The position numbers and the translations under genes are program-made. This document shows positions 3,357-9,129 of a DNA stretch of 64,000 nucleotides, one piece after another. The notes under the pieces are model-generated. The model ran no database searches. It worked only from the letters and a program-made list of their open reading frames with translations, and was not told where the DNA came from. Source of the DNA: Alphaproteobacteria bacterium (lineage in GTDB: Bacteria > Pseudomonadota > Alphaproteobacteria > UBA828). Each line of letters begins with the position of its first letter. The first letter of the stretch is position 1. Where the stretch lies: NCBI GenBank assembly GCA_022826665.1, contig JAJDUK010000056.1:1-64000 (forward strand), in the 5' to 3' direction.

Positions 3357-3492
3357 CTGAGCGTGCTCGCGTTAACTGATAGTGTGGTTTTCAGATAACT
3401 CGCTGGTTGCTCTGCGGCACGTTGTCGATCGGCCGTCGGCAGGGGCTCTTTCCCAATCACAAGAGATTTAGTATGGGTCGCAGGAGGTTGTC
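3357..3492 (+). promoter_or_regulatory. Leader and strong Shine-Dalgarno of the autotransporter gene
   Basis: This 136-bp region lies between the IS66 relic and the autotransporter gene and is relatively AT-rich. A perfect AGGAGG at 3482-3487 sits 5 nt before the ATG at 3493. This decides the start: translation begins upstream of the octamer repeat tract. By contrast the in-frame ATG at 3790, downstream of the tract, has no recognisable Shine-Dalgarno. A promoter must lie here but no confident -35/-10 pair was found. Confidence 0.6.
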
Positions 3493-6400
3493 ATGCGGCT
3501 CCGGGGGCATTTGCGCACCGGCGGCCGTCGGTACCACGATCAAGTGACGGGACATGTGATGATGAGATTTGGCGACAGGACTTGGGCCGTGCTGTGCGCG
3601 GCCGTCGAAACGATCCGCAATTGGGGCCGCAATCCGGACTTGACAAGTGCGGATAATGCCAGTCTCCATGTGGTCGCCGGGTCGCCGGGTCGCCGGGTCG
3701 CCGGGTCGCCGGGTCGCCGGGTCGCCGGGTCGCCGGGTCGCCGGGTCGCCGGGTCGCCGGGTCGCTCTGCCTGCGTCCGCGTGACGGCCATGAGCGCCTC
3801 CGTATGGGGCGGTTCCCGCCCGCCGGCCTCCCCGCCTGAACCTTCTTTCTCCGCCGACGGGCGTACGCCTTCACGCTGGCGCTCCGCTTCCGACAGTCCC
3901 GAACCTTCCTTCCGCCCCGCAGTGGCGGGCGCCGGCATCGTCGCCCGCGCGGTGCGCCCCGTCCTTGCCGCCGCGCTGCTCGGCCTGCCGCCGCTGCTCT
4001 TCGGCGCCGGCGGCGCCCTGGCTCAGGTGATCACGGATCCCTGGCTGGACCCGCCCACCGTGAGCTTCAAGGACGCCACCCTTACGCTGGACGAGGACGC
4101 GGGCCGAGGTAAAGACCCGCGTTTCGGTGAACTGAAGGTAACGATCGTTCAGTCCCACTACCGCATCGGGCCGAACACCGTGACCATTACGGCTTCCGAC
4201 AGCGGCACCGGCGCCGGCCACGCCACGGCGAACGACGACTACAAACCCGGGCCGTTTCAGGTCACCATCCCGGGGGGCGAGACGGAGGTCACGGCGTACC
4301 TGAAGGTGCTCATCGACGACAACGCTGTCGAAGAGGACGAGACCTTCACCCTGACTCTCTCCGGCTTCACCGGCGACCTGATCGCGGGCAGCCAGGCGAC
4401 GGCGACGGTGACCATCGTGGACGACGAGTACACGGTCAGCATCGACCCGGCAGGCACACAACATATGCAAGGCATAGTCACCCAGGTCGAAGAGGACGCG
4501 GGTTACGTCGAGGTGGGCATCGTCCTGTCCAAGGCGCTCAGGCGGACTTTCAATATGCGTTTCAGGTATCGCTCGACCGGCGGCTCGACCGGCGCCATCC
4601 TGGGCAAGGATTACCGCAATGGTCCGAGGAGGGTGACTTTTCCCGCAGGGCAGACAAAGGCCACCCTGAGAGTGCCGATCGTCGATGACACGATCGTGGA
4701 GAGAAGCGAGTTCTTCTACATCGAGGTTGACCCTGCGAGCTTGCCGGACGGCCACCCCGGCGCCGTCTTCTCCCACCCTGTCCAAATCCGGGACAACGAC
4801 GGGTCCGGCACGACCCCCGATGCGGGCACAATCGTGCCGATGACGCTCTACGAGGGCCAGACCAGGACCTTTACCATCAGGAACATCCCCCCTGAATGGG
4901 GCTCATCGCACGACAGGGTGAGCCGCCCAAAAGTGGAATTCCGTACCGGCGGCACCGCCCACACTACCCCGGGCTTCCACACGAGCAGGTTCAAATGCAG
5001 TTTTCAGGGTGTCGGGGACTACAACAGCCAGGCCATCGATATCTGCGTCGAGGACGAACCCGGTGCCGGGTTCGCGCGCGCTTCCATCGACAATGACGCG
5101 CGCGTCGTCACCTTCCAGTTGACCGCGCTCCGGGACCGGGAAACGGAGGGGAGCGAGACCGTCATGCTCAGGGTCACCTCCGGAGTCGCGAGCACATACT
5201 ACTACGACTTCGAGATCGCCATCACGGACCAGCCGAGCGAGTATGTGCGATCCGGCAGTCGGGAGGCGGGCAACTTCCGGTGCCGGGTACCGATCCCGCA
5301 GCCCCATGACGTGTTTCCGGGCAAGACCAACGTCGATCTTACCGATGCCGAGATACGGCAGTGGATGGCGGAGGTGAACAGACAGGAGCGGCGCTCCTAC
5401 GCGCTGCCGGAGGGGCTGGTGGCGGACTGGGACAAGGACAGCTACGAGGTCGGCGAGAAGGCGACGATCCGGTTCCGCACGGCGGACGGCGAGCCCTCCT
5501 GCGCCTCGATCTACTTTACGATCAACCTCGGCTCGCAGCCCGGGTTCTGGGAGCAGAACCCGCCGATCACCGCGTATTGGCAGACCGAATACAACGCCCG
5601 CATCCGGGTGCCGCTGTACCGCGGCGACTCGGAGGCGACGATGTCGGTGCCGGTGGAGGCGCCGGGCACGGCGAGTTTCCGGGTTCTGGGGGTGTGGAGC
5701 CCCTATGGCTGGGGGAGCAGACCGACGCCGGTGGACGGCGACGGCAACGTGCTCGCCCCCGACGTGGAGGCGACGGCGCGGGTCTGCACCGGCACGTGCC
5801 CGAGCATGGGCGAGGTTCCGCTGCCCGAGGTGAGCATCGCCGGGGCCTTCTCGGGCAGCGAGGGCGACCAGGCGGGCTTCACGCTCCAGGCGGACCCGGC
5901 CCCGCCGGCCGGCGAGACCCTGGAGGTGGACGTGACGATCACGGCCGAGGGCGACTTCGGCGTCGAGACCGGCGCCCGGAAGGTGACCGTCGGGAGCGAC
6001 GGCTACGCCGAGCTGCTCCTCGAGACGACGGGCGACGACGTGGACGAGCCCGACGGCTCGGTGACGCTGACGATCGAGCCCCGTGCCGGCTACTACACCC
6101 TGGGCCTGCCGGCGATGGTGACCACGGGGATCGTGGACGATGACGATACGGTGGACGGCCTGAGCGACGGGAACGCGGAGGCGACGGCGCTGCCGGCGGC
6201 GCATCCGGTGATGAAATACGCCGCGCTGGTCAAGACGTTCCACGACCGGATCGGGGCGCGGAACCAGCATGGTAATGGCCCCGAAGGCGGCTGGAACAAA
6301 CGGTTCCTGAAGGCGATGGGGCATCCGGACTACGTGGACTACCCGCAGGCGGCGGTGACGGTGGCGGACGCAAGGAGGCTGTGGAACCACGGCGGCCCCG

Positions 6401-9129
6401 GCGCCAACACGGCCTGGGACGGCACGGTCGAGGCGATGACCTACGCCGAGCAATACTTCGCCGGGCAGGTGACGCCGCCCGACCCGGTTCCCGTGCTGGC
6501 GGTGAGTGTCGCGGCGGGCGCTGACGTGACGGAGGGCGGCGATGCCACCTTCATCCTCACTGCCGTCCCGGCGCCGACAGCGCCGTTGGATGTGACGGTG
6601 ACGGTTGCGGCGAGCGGCGACTACGGCATTACCGCCGGCGAGCGGACGGTGACGATTCCGACCACCGGCAGCATTACGCTGACGCTGGCGACGACGGGCG
6701 ACGACGCGGACGAGCCCAACGGCTCGGTGAGCGCGACGGTGAAGGCCGGCACGGGCTACACGGTCGGCGCGGCGTCCACCGGAACGGTCGCCATCGCGGA
6801 CGACGACCTGCCGCCGCCGGCGATCTCGGTCGCGGCGAAGGCAGCGTCCATTACCGAAGGCGGCGATGCGGCGTTCACGGTAACGGCGGACCGGGCGGTG
6901 GACGCGAACCTCGCGGTGACGCTCGCGGTCGCGGAGGCAGCGGGCAGCGACTTCGTGGCCGCGGCCGACGAGGGCGAGCAGACGGCGATCATCCAGGCCG
7001 GCAAGAATACGGCCACGCTCACCGTGAGGACCGACGACGACGCCGTGGACGAGCCCGACGGCTCGGTGACCGCGACGGTAAAGGCCGGCAGCGGCTACAC
7101 CGTGGCGGCGTCGAACAATGCGGCCTCGGTCGCGGTGTCCGACAACGATGCCACCTCTGCGCCGGCAATCTCCATCGACGACGCCACGGGGCCGGAAGGC
7201 ACGCCGATGATATTCACCATCCGGCTCTCGGCGCCGTCGGACCGCACGGTCCAGGTGACCATCAGGTCCCGCGAGTCGACCCCGGCGTCGGCGCGCGTAG
7301 GCCGGGACTTCTACGCCCAGCGCTATTATGTGAGCTTCAAGCCGGGCGAGACGGTGCTGCGGCGGGGCTTCTTCATCCGGGACGACAGCCATGACGACGG
7401 GGGCGAGACCTTCGAGGTCTATGTCTCCTGGTCGGACGGCGTGCCGATTGCGGACGGCGTGGGCACAGGCACGATCACGAACTCGGACCCGTTGCCGGCG
7501 GTGTATCTGGCGCGTTTCGGCCGCACGGTGGCGGAACAGGCGCTGGACGGCATTGCCGGGCGCATGGCGGCGCCGCGCACGCCGGGGATGCAGGGCACAC
7601 TGGCCGGACAGGCGCTCAACTTCGATCCCGCTGCTTCCGGTGAATCGACGATAGGCGCCGCCGCGTCCGGTCAGTCGGTGATACCCGGCGTATCCGGCAC
7701 GACGTCCGCCATCCCCTCGGCGAACCGCGAGGCGGCGCTGGCGATGGCGGACATCGCTCGCGGCCTCGGTGCGGATGCGTCCGCTCCGGTCTCCGCTTCG
7801 GTGGGGCCGGGAAGCATGGCCGATCCGTTCGGCAATAACCGCTTCGGCTTCGGTACGCCATCGCCGCAATCGCGCACGATGACCGCGCGGGATGCGCTGC
7901 TGGGGTCGAGCTTCTCGCTGACCGGGCAGCGGGACGGCGCGGGCGGCAGCCTCGCCTTCTGGGGCCGCGCCTCCCAGGGCAGCTTCGACGGCGCCGAACG
8001 GGGAGACGGGACCGACATTACCCTGAACGGCGCGGTCACCACCGGCATGCTCGGCGCGGACTATGCCAGGGGCAACTGGCTGGTCGGTCTGGCGCTGACC
8101 CAGAGCACGGCCGACGGCGGCTATGCCGCCCTCGGCGGCGGCGATCCCTGTCCCGACACGGAGGATGTGCTGTGCGACGGCGCGGTCCGGGCCGGCGACG
8201 GCGATGTCGAGGCGTCGCTGACGGCGGCGATCCCCTATGCGGCGTTGCAGGCATCGGAGCGTCTGAAGCTCTGGGGTGCTGCGGGCTACGGCACGGGCGA
8301 GGTGACGCTCAAGACTGCCCTGGGCGATAGCTACAGCGCGGACACGAGCTGGACCATGGCGGCGGCGGGCGCGCGCAGCGACCTGCTTGCGCCGCTGGCG
8401 GAGGGTTCCGGTCTCGCGCTGGCGCTGACCTCGGATGCGCTCTGGGCGCGAACCACGTCGGAGAAGACCCGCGATCTTGCGGCATCGGACTCCGACGTGA
8501 CCCGGCTCCGGCTCGGCCTGGAGGGCAGCTGGCGCATGGCGCTGGATGGCGACGGCCATCTGACGCCGAAGCTGGAGATCGGCGCGCGCCATGACGGCGG
8601 CGATGCGGAGACCGGCTTCGGGGTGGAGCTCGGCGGCGGCATCGCCTGGGTCGATCCCGGTCTCGGTCTCTCGCTCGACCTCTCAGGCCGCACGCTGCTG
8701 TCGCATGAGAACGACGACCTTGAGGACCGGGGGTTCTCGGCACAGCTTGGCTTCGACCCGGACCAGACGACCGAGCGGGGTCTGTCACTCAGCCTGCGCC
8801 AGGACTTCGGCGGACGGGCGCAGGGCGGGCTGGATACGCTGTTCGCGCCCGACCCGCTGGAAGACCGCACGGGGAGCGATGCGGCCTCCCGCTGGGCGAT
8901 GGAGGCGGCATATGGCTTCCCCGCTTTCAGCGGCCGCGTCACCGGAAGCCCGCATGTCGGGTTGGGTCTCTCGACGGGCGCGCGGGACTACAGCATCGGC
9001 TGGCGCTTGACGCCAGCGACGAACGCCGACGCGCCCGACGTTTCCTTCGGCGTGAAGGCGACAAGACGCGAGAGCGGGACCGCGCAGCCCGAGCACACCG
9101 CCGGGGTCGAGCTCCTGGCGCGGTGGTGA
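3493..9129 (+). CDS. Giant Calx-beta autotransporter, probably phase variable
   Basis: 1,878 residues. Residues 60-91 are encoded by eleven copies of an 8-bp repeat and read as repeating VAGSPGRR. A hydrophobic export segment ends GAGGALAQ near residue 178, unusually far from the start. Several Calx-beta repeats follow, with the family's TVTIVDDE, DDNAVEEDETF and VDEPDGSVT signatures. A non-repeat segment lies at about 886-993. The last ~370 residues have alternating strand patterns of an autotransporter beta-barrel, introduced by FGRTVAEQALDGIAGRM and ending in LLARW. The product should be a surface-exposed adhesin-like protein in the outer membrane. The ATG at 3493 has a perfect AGGAGG; the in-frame ATG at 3790 would omit the repeats but lacks one. 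It lies in the accessory region beside an IS66 relic. Family call secure, ligand unknown. Confidence 0.85.
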   Translation: MRLRGHLRTGGRRYHDQVTGHVMMRFGDRTWAVLCAAVETIRNWGRNPDLTSADNASLHVVAGSPGRRVAGSPGRRVAGSPGRRVAGSPGRSACVRVTAMSASVWGGSRPPASPPEPSFSADGRTPSRWRSASDSPEPSFRPAVAGAGIVARAVRPVLAAALLGLPPLLFGAGGALAQVITDPWLDPPTVSFKDATLTLDEDAGRGKDPRFGELKVTIVQSHYRIGPNTVTITASDSGTGAGHATANDDYKPGPFQVTIPGGETEVTAYLKVLIDDNAVEEDETFTLTLSGFTGDLIAGSQATATVTIVDDEYTVSIDPAGTQHMQGIVTQVEEDAGYVEVGIVLSKALRRTFNMRFRYRSTGGSTGAILGKDYRNGPRRVTFPAGQTKATLRVPIVDDTIVERSEFFYIEVDPASLPDGHPGAVFSHPVQIRDNDGSGTTPDAGTIVPMTLYEGQTRTFTIRNIPPEWGSSHDRVSRPKVEFRTGGTAHTTPGFHTSRFKCSFQGVGDYNSQAIDICVEDEPGAGFARASIDNDARVVTFQLTALRDRETEGSETVMLRVTSGVASTYYYDFEIAITDQPSEYVRSGSREAGNFRCRVPIPQPHDVFPGKTNVDLTDAEIRQWMAEVNRQERRSYALPEGLVADWDKDSYEVGEKATIRFRTADGEPSCASIYFTINLGSQPGFWEQNPPITAYWQTEYNARIRVPLYRGDSEATMSVPVEAPGTASFRVLGVWSPYGWGSRPTPVDGDGNVLAPDVEATARVCTGTCPSMGEVPLPEVSIAGAFSGSEGDQAGFTLQADPAPPAGETLEVDVTITAEGDFGVETGARKVTVGSDGYAELLLETTGDDVDEPDGSVTLTIEPRAGYYTLGLPAMVTTGIVDDDDTVDGLSDGNAEATALPAAHPVMKYAALVKTFHDRIGARNQHGNGPEGGWNKRFLKAMGHPDYVDYPQAAVTVADARRLWNHGGPGANTAWDGTVEAMTYAEQYFAGQVTPPDPVPVLAVSVAAGADVTEGGDATFILTAVPAPTAPLDVTVTVAASGDYGITAGERTVTIPTTGSITLTLATTGDDADEPNGSVSATVKAGTGYTVGAASTGTVAIADDDLPPPAISVAAKAASITEGGDAAFTVTADRAVDANLAVTLAVAEAAGSDFVAAADEGEQTAIIQAGKNTATLTVRTDDDAVDEPDGSVTATVKAGSGYTVAASNNAASVAVSDNDATSAPAISIDDATGPEGTPMIFTIRLSAPSDRTVQVTIRSRESTPASARVGRDFYAQRYYVSFKPGETVLRRGFFIRDDSHDDGGETFEVYVSWSDGVPIADGVGTGTITNSDPLPAVYLARFGRTVAEQALDGIAGRMAAPRTPGMQGTLAGQALNFDPAASGESTIGAAASGQSVIPGVSGTTSAIPSANREAALAMADIARGLGADASAPVSASVGPGSMADPFGNNRFGFGTPSPQSRTMTARDALLGSSFSLTGQRDGAGGSLAFWGRASQGSFDGAERGDGTDITLNGAVTTGMLGADYARGNWLVGLALTQSTADGGYAALGGGDPCPDTEDVLCDGAVRAGDGDVEASLTAAIPYAALQASERLKLWGAAGYGTGEVTLKTALGDSYSADTSWTMAAAGARSDLLAPLAEGSGLALALTSDALWARTTSEKTRDLAASDSDVTRLRLGLEGSWRMALDGDGHLTPKLEIGARHDGGDAETGFGVELGGGIAWVDPGLGLSLDLSGRTLLSHENDDLEDRGFSAQLGFDPDQTTERGLSLSLRQDFGGRAQGGLDTLFAPDPLEDRTGSDAASRWAMEAAYGFPAFSGRVTGSPHVGLGLSTGARDYSIGWRLTPATNADAPDVSFGVKATRRESGTAQPEHTAGVELLARW
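3673..3765 (+). repeat. Octanucleotide tandem repeat (GTCGCCGG, 11 copies) inside a reading frame
   Basis: Eleven perfect copies of GTCGCCGG run from 3673 to 3760, followed by a partial GTCGC. The unit length is not a multiple of three. With eleven copies the frame from 3493 stays open to 9129. Gain of one copy brings the TGA at 3782 into frame; loss of one brings the TGA at 3837 into frame. Copy-number change by slippage would therefore switch the autotransporter off and on. The perfection of all copies suggests recent expansion. Confidence 0.95.

Follow-up and report, generated by a model that had tools for sequence, protein, structure and literature searches.

An in-frame octamer array at the start of a very large Calx-beta protein gene: a likely phase-variation locus in an apparently sponge-associated alphaproteobacterium

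Close to the 5′ end of a 1,878-codon reading frame in an alphaproteobacterial genome (assembly GCA_022826665.1), an octamer is repeated eleven times without error, and we consider this locus likely to be a simple-sequence-repeat contingency locus that switches a reading frame. The window referred to throughout is the whole stretch of DNA analysed, positions 1 to 64,000 of contig JAJDUK010000056.1. Translation would start at the ATG at 3493, which is preceded by a Shine-Dalgarno (SD) sequence, and would continue across the octamers that lie within the leader. Polymerase slippage in living cells would add or remove 8-bp units, so that one copy number in three would place signal peptide and protein in frame (ON, the present state) and the others would lead to a stop within about 72 nt (OFF). 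The product would be displayed at the cell surface, where it might serve variable attachment or the evasion of phage, host cells or neighbours. This reading builds on the observed anatomy of the locus, its frame logic and the recurrence of arrays. The locus would be one of many such switches, built from units of 5, 7 and 8 bp and found in bacteria apparently sharing sponge hosts, and a multi-locus frame-shifting contingency system resembling meningococcal autA/autB is the best reading of the data as a whole.

The array, its frame and the encoded protein

Eleven perfect GTCGCCGG units occupy 3673-3760 within the open reading frame (ORF), and AGGAGG (3482-3487) stands 5 nt ahead of ATG 3493, as the first-pass annotation had described. 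Tandem Repeats Finder returns 11.8 copies with 100% matches at 3672-3765, the strongest array of the window; it is perfect across 94 bp and the exact array is found once in the genome. The span originally singled out, 3482-3840, begins at the SD and extends as far as the second of the off-frame stops; the array proper is 3672-3765. Simulated copy changes reproduced the predicted frame logic: the 1,878-codon frame (3493-9129) is open at the present copy number, one additional copy leads to a TGA at 3782-3784, only 5 nt before the ATG at 3790, one copy fewer leads to a TGA at 3837-3839, and a change of three copies in either direction restores the full frame. The features are as follows.

3482..3487, +, Shine-Dalgarno AGGAGG, from the sequence; across loci, strong SDs whose frame stays open into the array outnumber those in shuffles
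3493..9129, +, ORF of 1,878 codons encoding a Calx-beta surface protein; the present copy number keeps it in frame
3493..3671, +, pre-array leader, putatively translated; frame open from ATG 3493, homologous leaders without codon-level signature
3640..3645, +, TTGACA, resembling a -35 box; at 7 of 10 loci it lies about 33 nt upstream of the array (mean in shuffles 0.03)
3672..3765, +, octamer array, 11.75 copies (11 perfect GTCGCCGG at 3673-3760)
3782..3784, +, TGA met with one extra copy (simulated copy change)
3790..3792, +, in-frame ATG after the array, an alternative start without strong SD; most other octamer arrays are likewise followed by an ATG
3837..3839, +, TGA met with one copy fewer (simulated copy change)
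3952..4023, +, probable signal peptide core (VRPVLAAALLGLPPLLFGAGGALA), read from the translation
4477..4737, +, best of three Calx-beta matches (PF03160), domain search
7870..9126, +, C-terminal domain, predicted outer-membrane beta-barrel (AlphaFold2 model, Foldseek)

The gene probably encodes a very large secreted Calx-beta protein anchored in the outer membrane. Its product contains three matches to PF03160, and the hydrophobic stretch at 3952-4023, which ends in ALA, is a likely signal peptide core. Since this core starts 62 codons beyond the array, the array lies in a long pre-sequence. Such leaders are not unusual among relatives of the gene, for in G001:C435 (L012), a relative lacking an array, the pre-sequence starts at an SD and comprises about 113 residues. 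The C-terminal domain, of about 419 residues, has relatives in all eight of the eight genomes of the genus. An AlphaFold2 model built from 14 family members consists nearly entirely of strands (mean pLDDT 70.5, pTM 0.64) and its top Foldseek match is the beta-domain of the BrkA autotransporter (3qq2). Because TM-scores are low (0.32-0.49), the model supports an outer-membrane barrel whose best match is an autotransporter and nothing further. The label autotransporter given in the first-pass annotation is thus tentative: it has behind it a C-terminal barrel modelled at medium confidence, with BrkA as the best fold match, and Calx-beta domains as the putative passenger; no autotransporter profile of Pfam or NCBIfam matched the protein. 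On the opposite strand, 4903-8592 (-) is an open frame of 1,229 codons running antisense to the surface-protein gene; it is probably just an effect of high G+C.

Recurrence of arrays at surface-protein genes

Arrays were sought in 1.85 Mb, approximately 40% of the window's genome, comprising the initial 20 kb of almost all contigs together with gene regions. Perfect arrays of period 4-14 exceeding 20 bp number just five, which places the window array far beyond chance. The remaining eight arrays of the scan are 18-20 bp long; six of these eight are hexamers, as against none of the five longer ones (Fisher P 0.02). All five arrays above 20 bp, listed below, lie at the 5′ end of a large surface-type ORF or, in the case of C93, of the region upstream of one.

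C73 (window): GTCGCCGG x11.8, 5′ end of large surface-type ORF
C93: GCCGAGCC, at least x10.9, at contig edge, upstream half of surface-type locus
C10: AGCCGAG x11, 5′ end of large surface-type ORF
C49: GAGCC x16, 5′ end of large surface-type ORF with fibronectin-type III domains
C36: CGGCC x5.4, 5′ end of large surface-type ORF

The counterpart of C93 in another genome (G004, contig C49) leads into a large surface-type ORF. C10 and C49 of the window's genome (G000) are duplicates with leaders about 88-90% identical, C10 carrying a heptamer and being out of frame and C49 carrying a pentamer and being in frame. Different repeat units would do the same job in duplicate genes.

A search with an alignment of the barrel yielded 335 relatives, the best 80 of which come from metagenome-assembled genomes (MAGs) labelled Alphaproteobacteria, Gammaproteobacteria, Nitrospira, Acidobacteria, Vicinamibacteria and Synechococcus. 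ORFs preceded by an array are found at the following loci.

L248, L253, L256, L263, L265, L268, L270
L272 (gammaproteobacterium), L279 (Nitrospira), L289 (Nitrospirales), L291 (Nitrospira)
L329, from another genus

At gene starts the units are of 5, 7 or 8 bp and never a multiple of 3. Contig ends cut 55 of the 80 loci inside the ORF, and several contigs stop within the array, the outcome to be expected where assembly breaks down on such repeats. Among 385 genomes of the class, the exact octamer occurs, besides the window, in G205 (L327) and G384 (L268), at the same gene type, and, within a homologous cassette, in G382 (L329). Arrays in viral contigs have 2-4 copies only.

Some further features of the family were observed. 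Barrel domains (L247-L326) share 48-79% identity between MAGs labelled as different phyla, a level that, from sequence comparison, suggests either lateral transfer among co-resident bacteria or mis-binning. In two arrays the unit shifts along the array, from ATCCCCGG to GGATCGCC at L248:202-287 and from an 8-mer to a 7-mer at L263:1-88, hinting at the origin of new units. Poly-G tracts of about 23-60 G lie in the leaders of two other members (L298:60-125 and L311:4395-4465); they are possibly another repeat switch, L311 having an N gap there that may point to an assembly problem.

Start codon, phase and competing explanations

The contingency reading put forward in the first-pass annotation is strengthened by recurrent non-triplet arrays, pre-array SD starts in excess of shuffles, ORFs intact in every phase and the ON/OFF duplicates. 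Alongside this strong comparative support, the choice of start codon leaves room for another candidate, ATG 3790. An SD match of at least 5 nt with the frame open into the array was found at 7 of 10 loci; the mean for shuffled sequences is 1.7, and none of 500 shuffles reaches 7. Genome-wide, such SDs accompany about 20% of gene starts, compared with 12% of internal controls. At C94 (G4C94), L248, L256 and L268 the SD at the upstream start is weak. At C10, C36, L268, L272 and L327 the main frame has no ATG soon after the array, and an upstream start is therefore needed there. Neither codon-position bias nor low dN/dS was detected in the pre-array leaders, a test that is uninformative since leaders on both sides of the array look unconstrained.

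Phase was assessed at 14 loci with both flanks, homologous as well as paralogous, with one genome per species. From the chosen upstream start, three loci (C73, G000:C49 and L265) are in frame with a signal peptide and eleven are out of frame; three of 14 fits an expectation of one third (binomial probability of at most three, 0.26). The long downstream ORF is open at all 14, its length ranging from about 360 codons, where a contig end cuts it, to about 2,600. The later of the off-frame stops lies on average 86 nt after the array, compared with 490 nt within these same reading frames (0 of 5000 draws), a closeness to which leader composition and shared descent may contribute. The loci are not fully independent, as some share descent.

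The principal competing explanation, which we regard as unlikely, is that the array is a 5′ leader: a TTGACA ... TATAAT promoter would lie just upstream, transcription would start at the array and translation at ATG 3790, and copy number would tune expression with no frame switching, as in Haemophilus hmw1A/hmw2A. At 7 of 10 loci a TTGACA does stand some 33-36 nt upstream of the array (mean in shuffles 0.03), TATAAT or TACAAT lies at the array border in about half of the loci, an ATG is conserved just after most octamer arrays, and the missing coding signature of the pre-array leader agrees with this model. However, the spacing between TTGACA and TATAAT at the loci is 19-23, not 17, and a -10 box sought at the array border of the window locus was not found. 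TTGACA/TATAAT-like pairs showed no general enrichment genome-wide, which does not favour a general promoter, and a leaderless reading likewise gained no support when leaderless starts were sought. TTGACA also occurs about 32 nt ahead of an array in a DNA methylase gene (L227), so that the element may belong to the arrays rather than to a surface-gene promoter. The TTGACA ... TATAAT pair had been considered as proof of a 5′-leader array; that reading was demoted to a rival on account of the loci without post-array ATG, the SD statistics, which place strong SDs before the array and not before ATG 3790, and the avoidance of unit lengths that are multiples of 3.

A variant of the frame switch from ATG 3493, which we judge improbable, would have three states. 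One phase would fuse leader and protein, a second would end at a TGA beside the post-array ATG, where ribosomes would restart and produce a short form, and the third would run past and be off. At 12 loci (C73, G4C49, G4C94, L248, L253, L256, L263, L265, L270, L279, L289 and L329) one off frame does end at a TGA or TAA that overlaps the post-array start or precedes it by no more than about 9 nt. The coincidence is nevertheless weaker than this count suggests, since Met-Ser starts readily give rise to ATGA and the octamer cassettes have a common descent, and the scheme is impossible at loci without a post-array ATG. That the array is an artefact of assembly, or a neutral repeat with no function, is very improbable: these are MAG sequences and several contigs do end inside arrays, but the same placement is seen in SPAdes-type (NODE) and MEGAHIT-type (k141) contigs from separate sample series, different units occupy homologous places, and arrays are nearly restricted to one gene class.

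Known switching systems and the sponge setting

Mucosal pathogens are the main source of known cases of repeat-driven phase variation. The same switch logic would here apply to adhesin-like proteins of uncultured bacteria of several phyla that seemingly share sponge hosts, and the presence of 5-, 7- and 8-letter repeats at the same place in similar genes suggests that these symbionts may diversify their coats in much the same way as such pathogens. If this is true, existing long-read metagenomes would allow a direct test of how symbionts maintain a surface that is both stable and diverse in the face of phage, host cells and rivals.

The closest parallel to the frame switch proposed for the window is autA/autB of Neisseria meningitidis, in which AAGC repeats in the signal-sequence coding region switch the frame of an autotransporter, as is established (PMC5118866). 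Both have a non-triplet repeat in the leader, and intact genes that are mostly out of phase with about one third expected in phase. They differ in that the meningococcal repeat is a tetranucleotide directly after the start codon and occurs in pathogens, whereas the arrays described here have GC-rich units of 5, 7 or 8 bp, a much longer leader and often TTGACA upstream. In Haemophilus influenzae, 7-9 bp repeats are linked to expression of the hmw1A/hmw2A adhesins (PMC2651432). Long units (7, 8 and 9 bp) at adhesin genes, and differing units at the same gene between strains, are shared features; the Haemophilus repeats, however, lie mostly 70-210 bp upstream and are thought to tune transcription, whereas those described here most likely lie in the reading frame. 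The octamer VNTRs of Brucella HOOF-print (PMC1183211) also occur in an alphaproteobacterium, hypervariability being a property of the Brucella loci. There, one octamer is common to eight loci and is used for typing, whereas here the unit differs by locus and the arrays sit at the starts of surface-protein genes.

The bacteria apparently come from sponges, the MAG prefixes CAR, RHO and COS matching Carteriospongia, Rhopaloeides and Coscinoderma (PMC8163846). The available parts of two reports on sponge symbionts (PMC9531527, PMC8163846) describe Calx-beta, cadherin and fibronectin-type adhesin-like genes as well as lateral transfer of attachment genes; the domain types and the kind of setting are the same as here, and those parts describe no repeat-mediated switching. 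Within the literature collection searched, no report of repeat-driven phase variation in sponge symbionts was found; a search there for phase variation in sponge symbionts gave one paper, on freshwater-sponge Pseudomonas.

A broader and rather doubtful possibility is that a contingency cassette (SD start, TTGACA, interchangeable 5/7/8-bp array and post-array ATG) is laterally shared among sponge symbionts and placed before different surface proteins across phyla. Each gene would then have three states (fused leader, terminate-and-reinitiate, off), each cell many coat combinations, and a restriction-modification gene might be under the same control. As a separate observation, GAGCC arrays of 16 and 25+9 copies lie at the ends of two contigs of genome G005 (L227:6968-7048, contig C79, and L228:8-178, contig C142). 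The former terminates an Eco57I-type DNA methylase ORF and the latter opens a frame resembling its continuation; together they are possibly a phase-variable restriction-modification gene.
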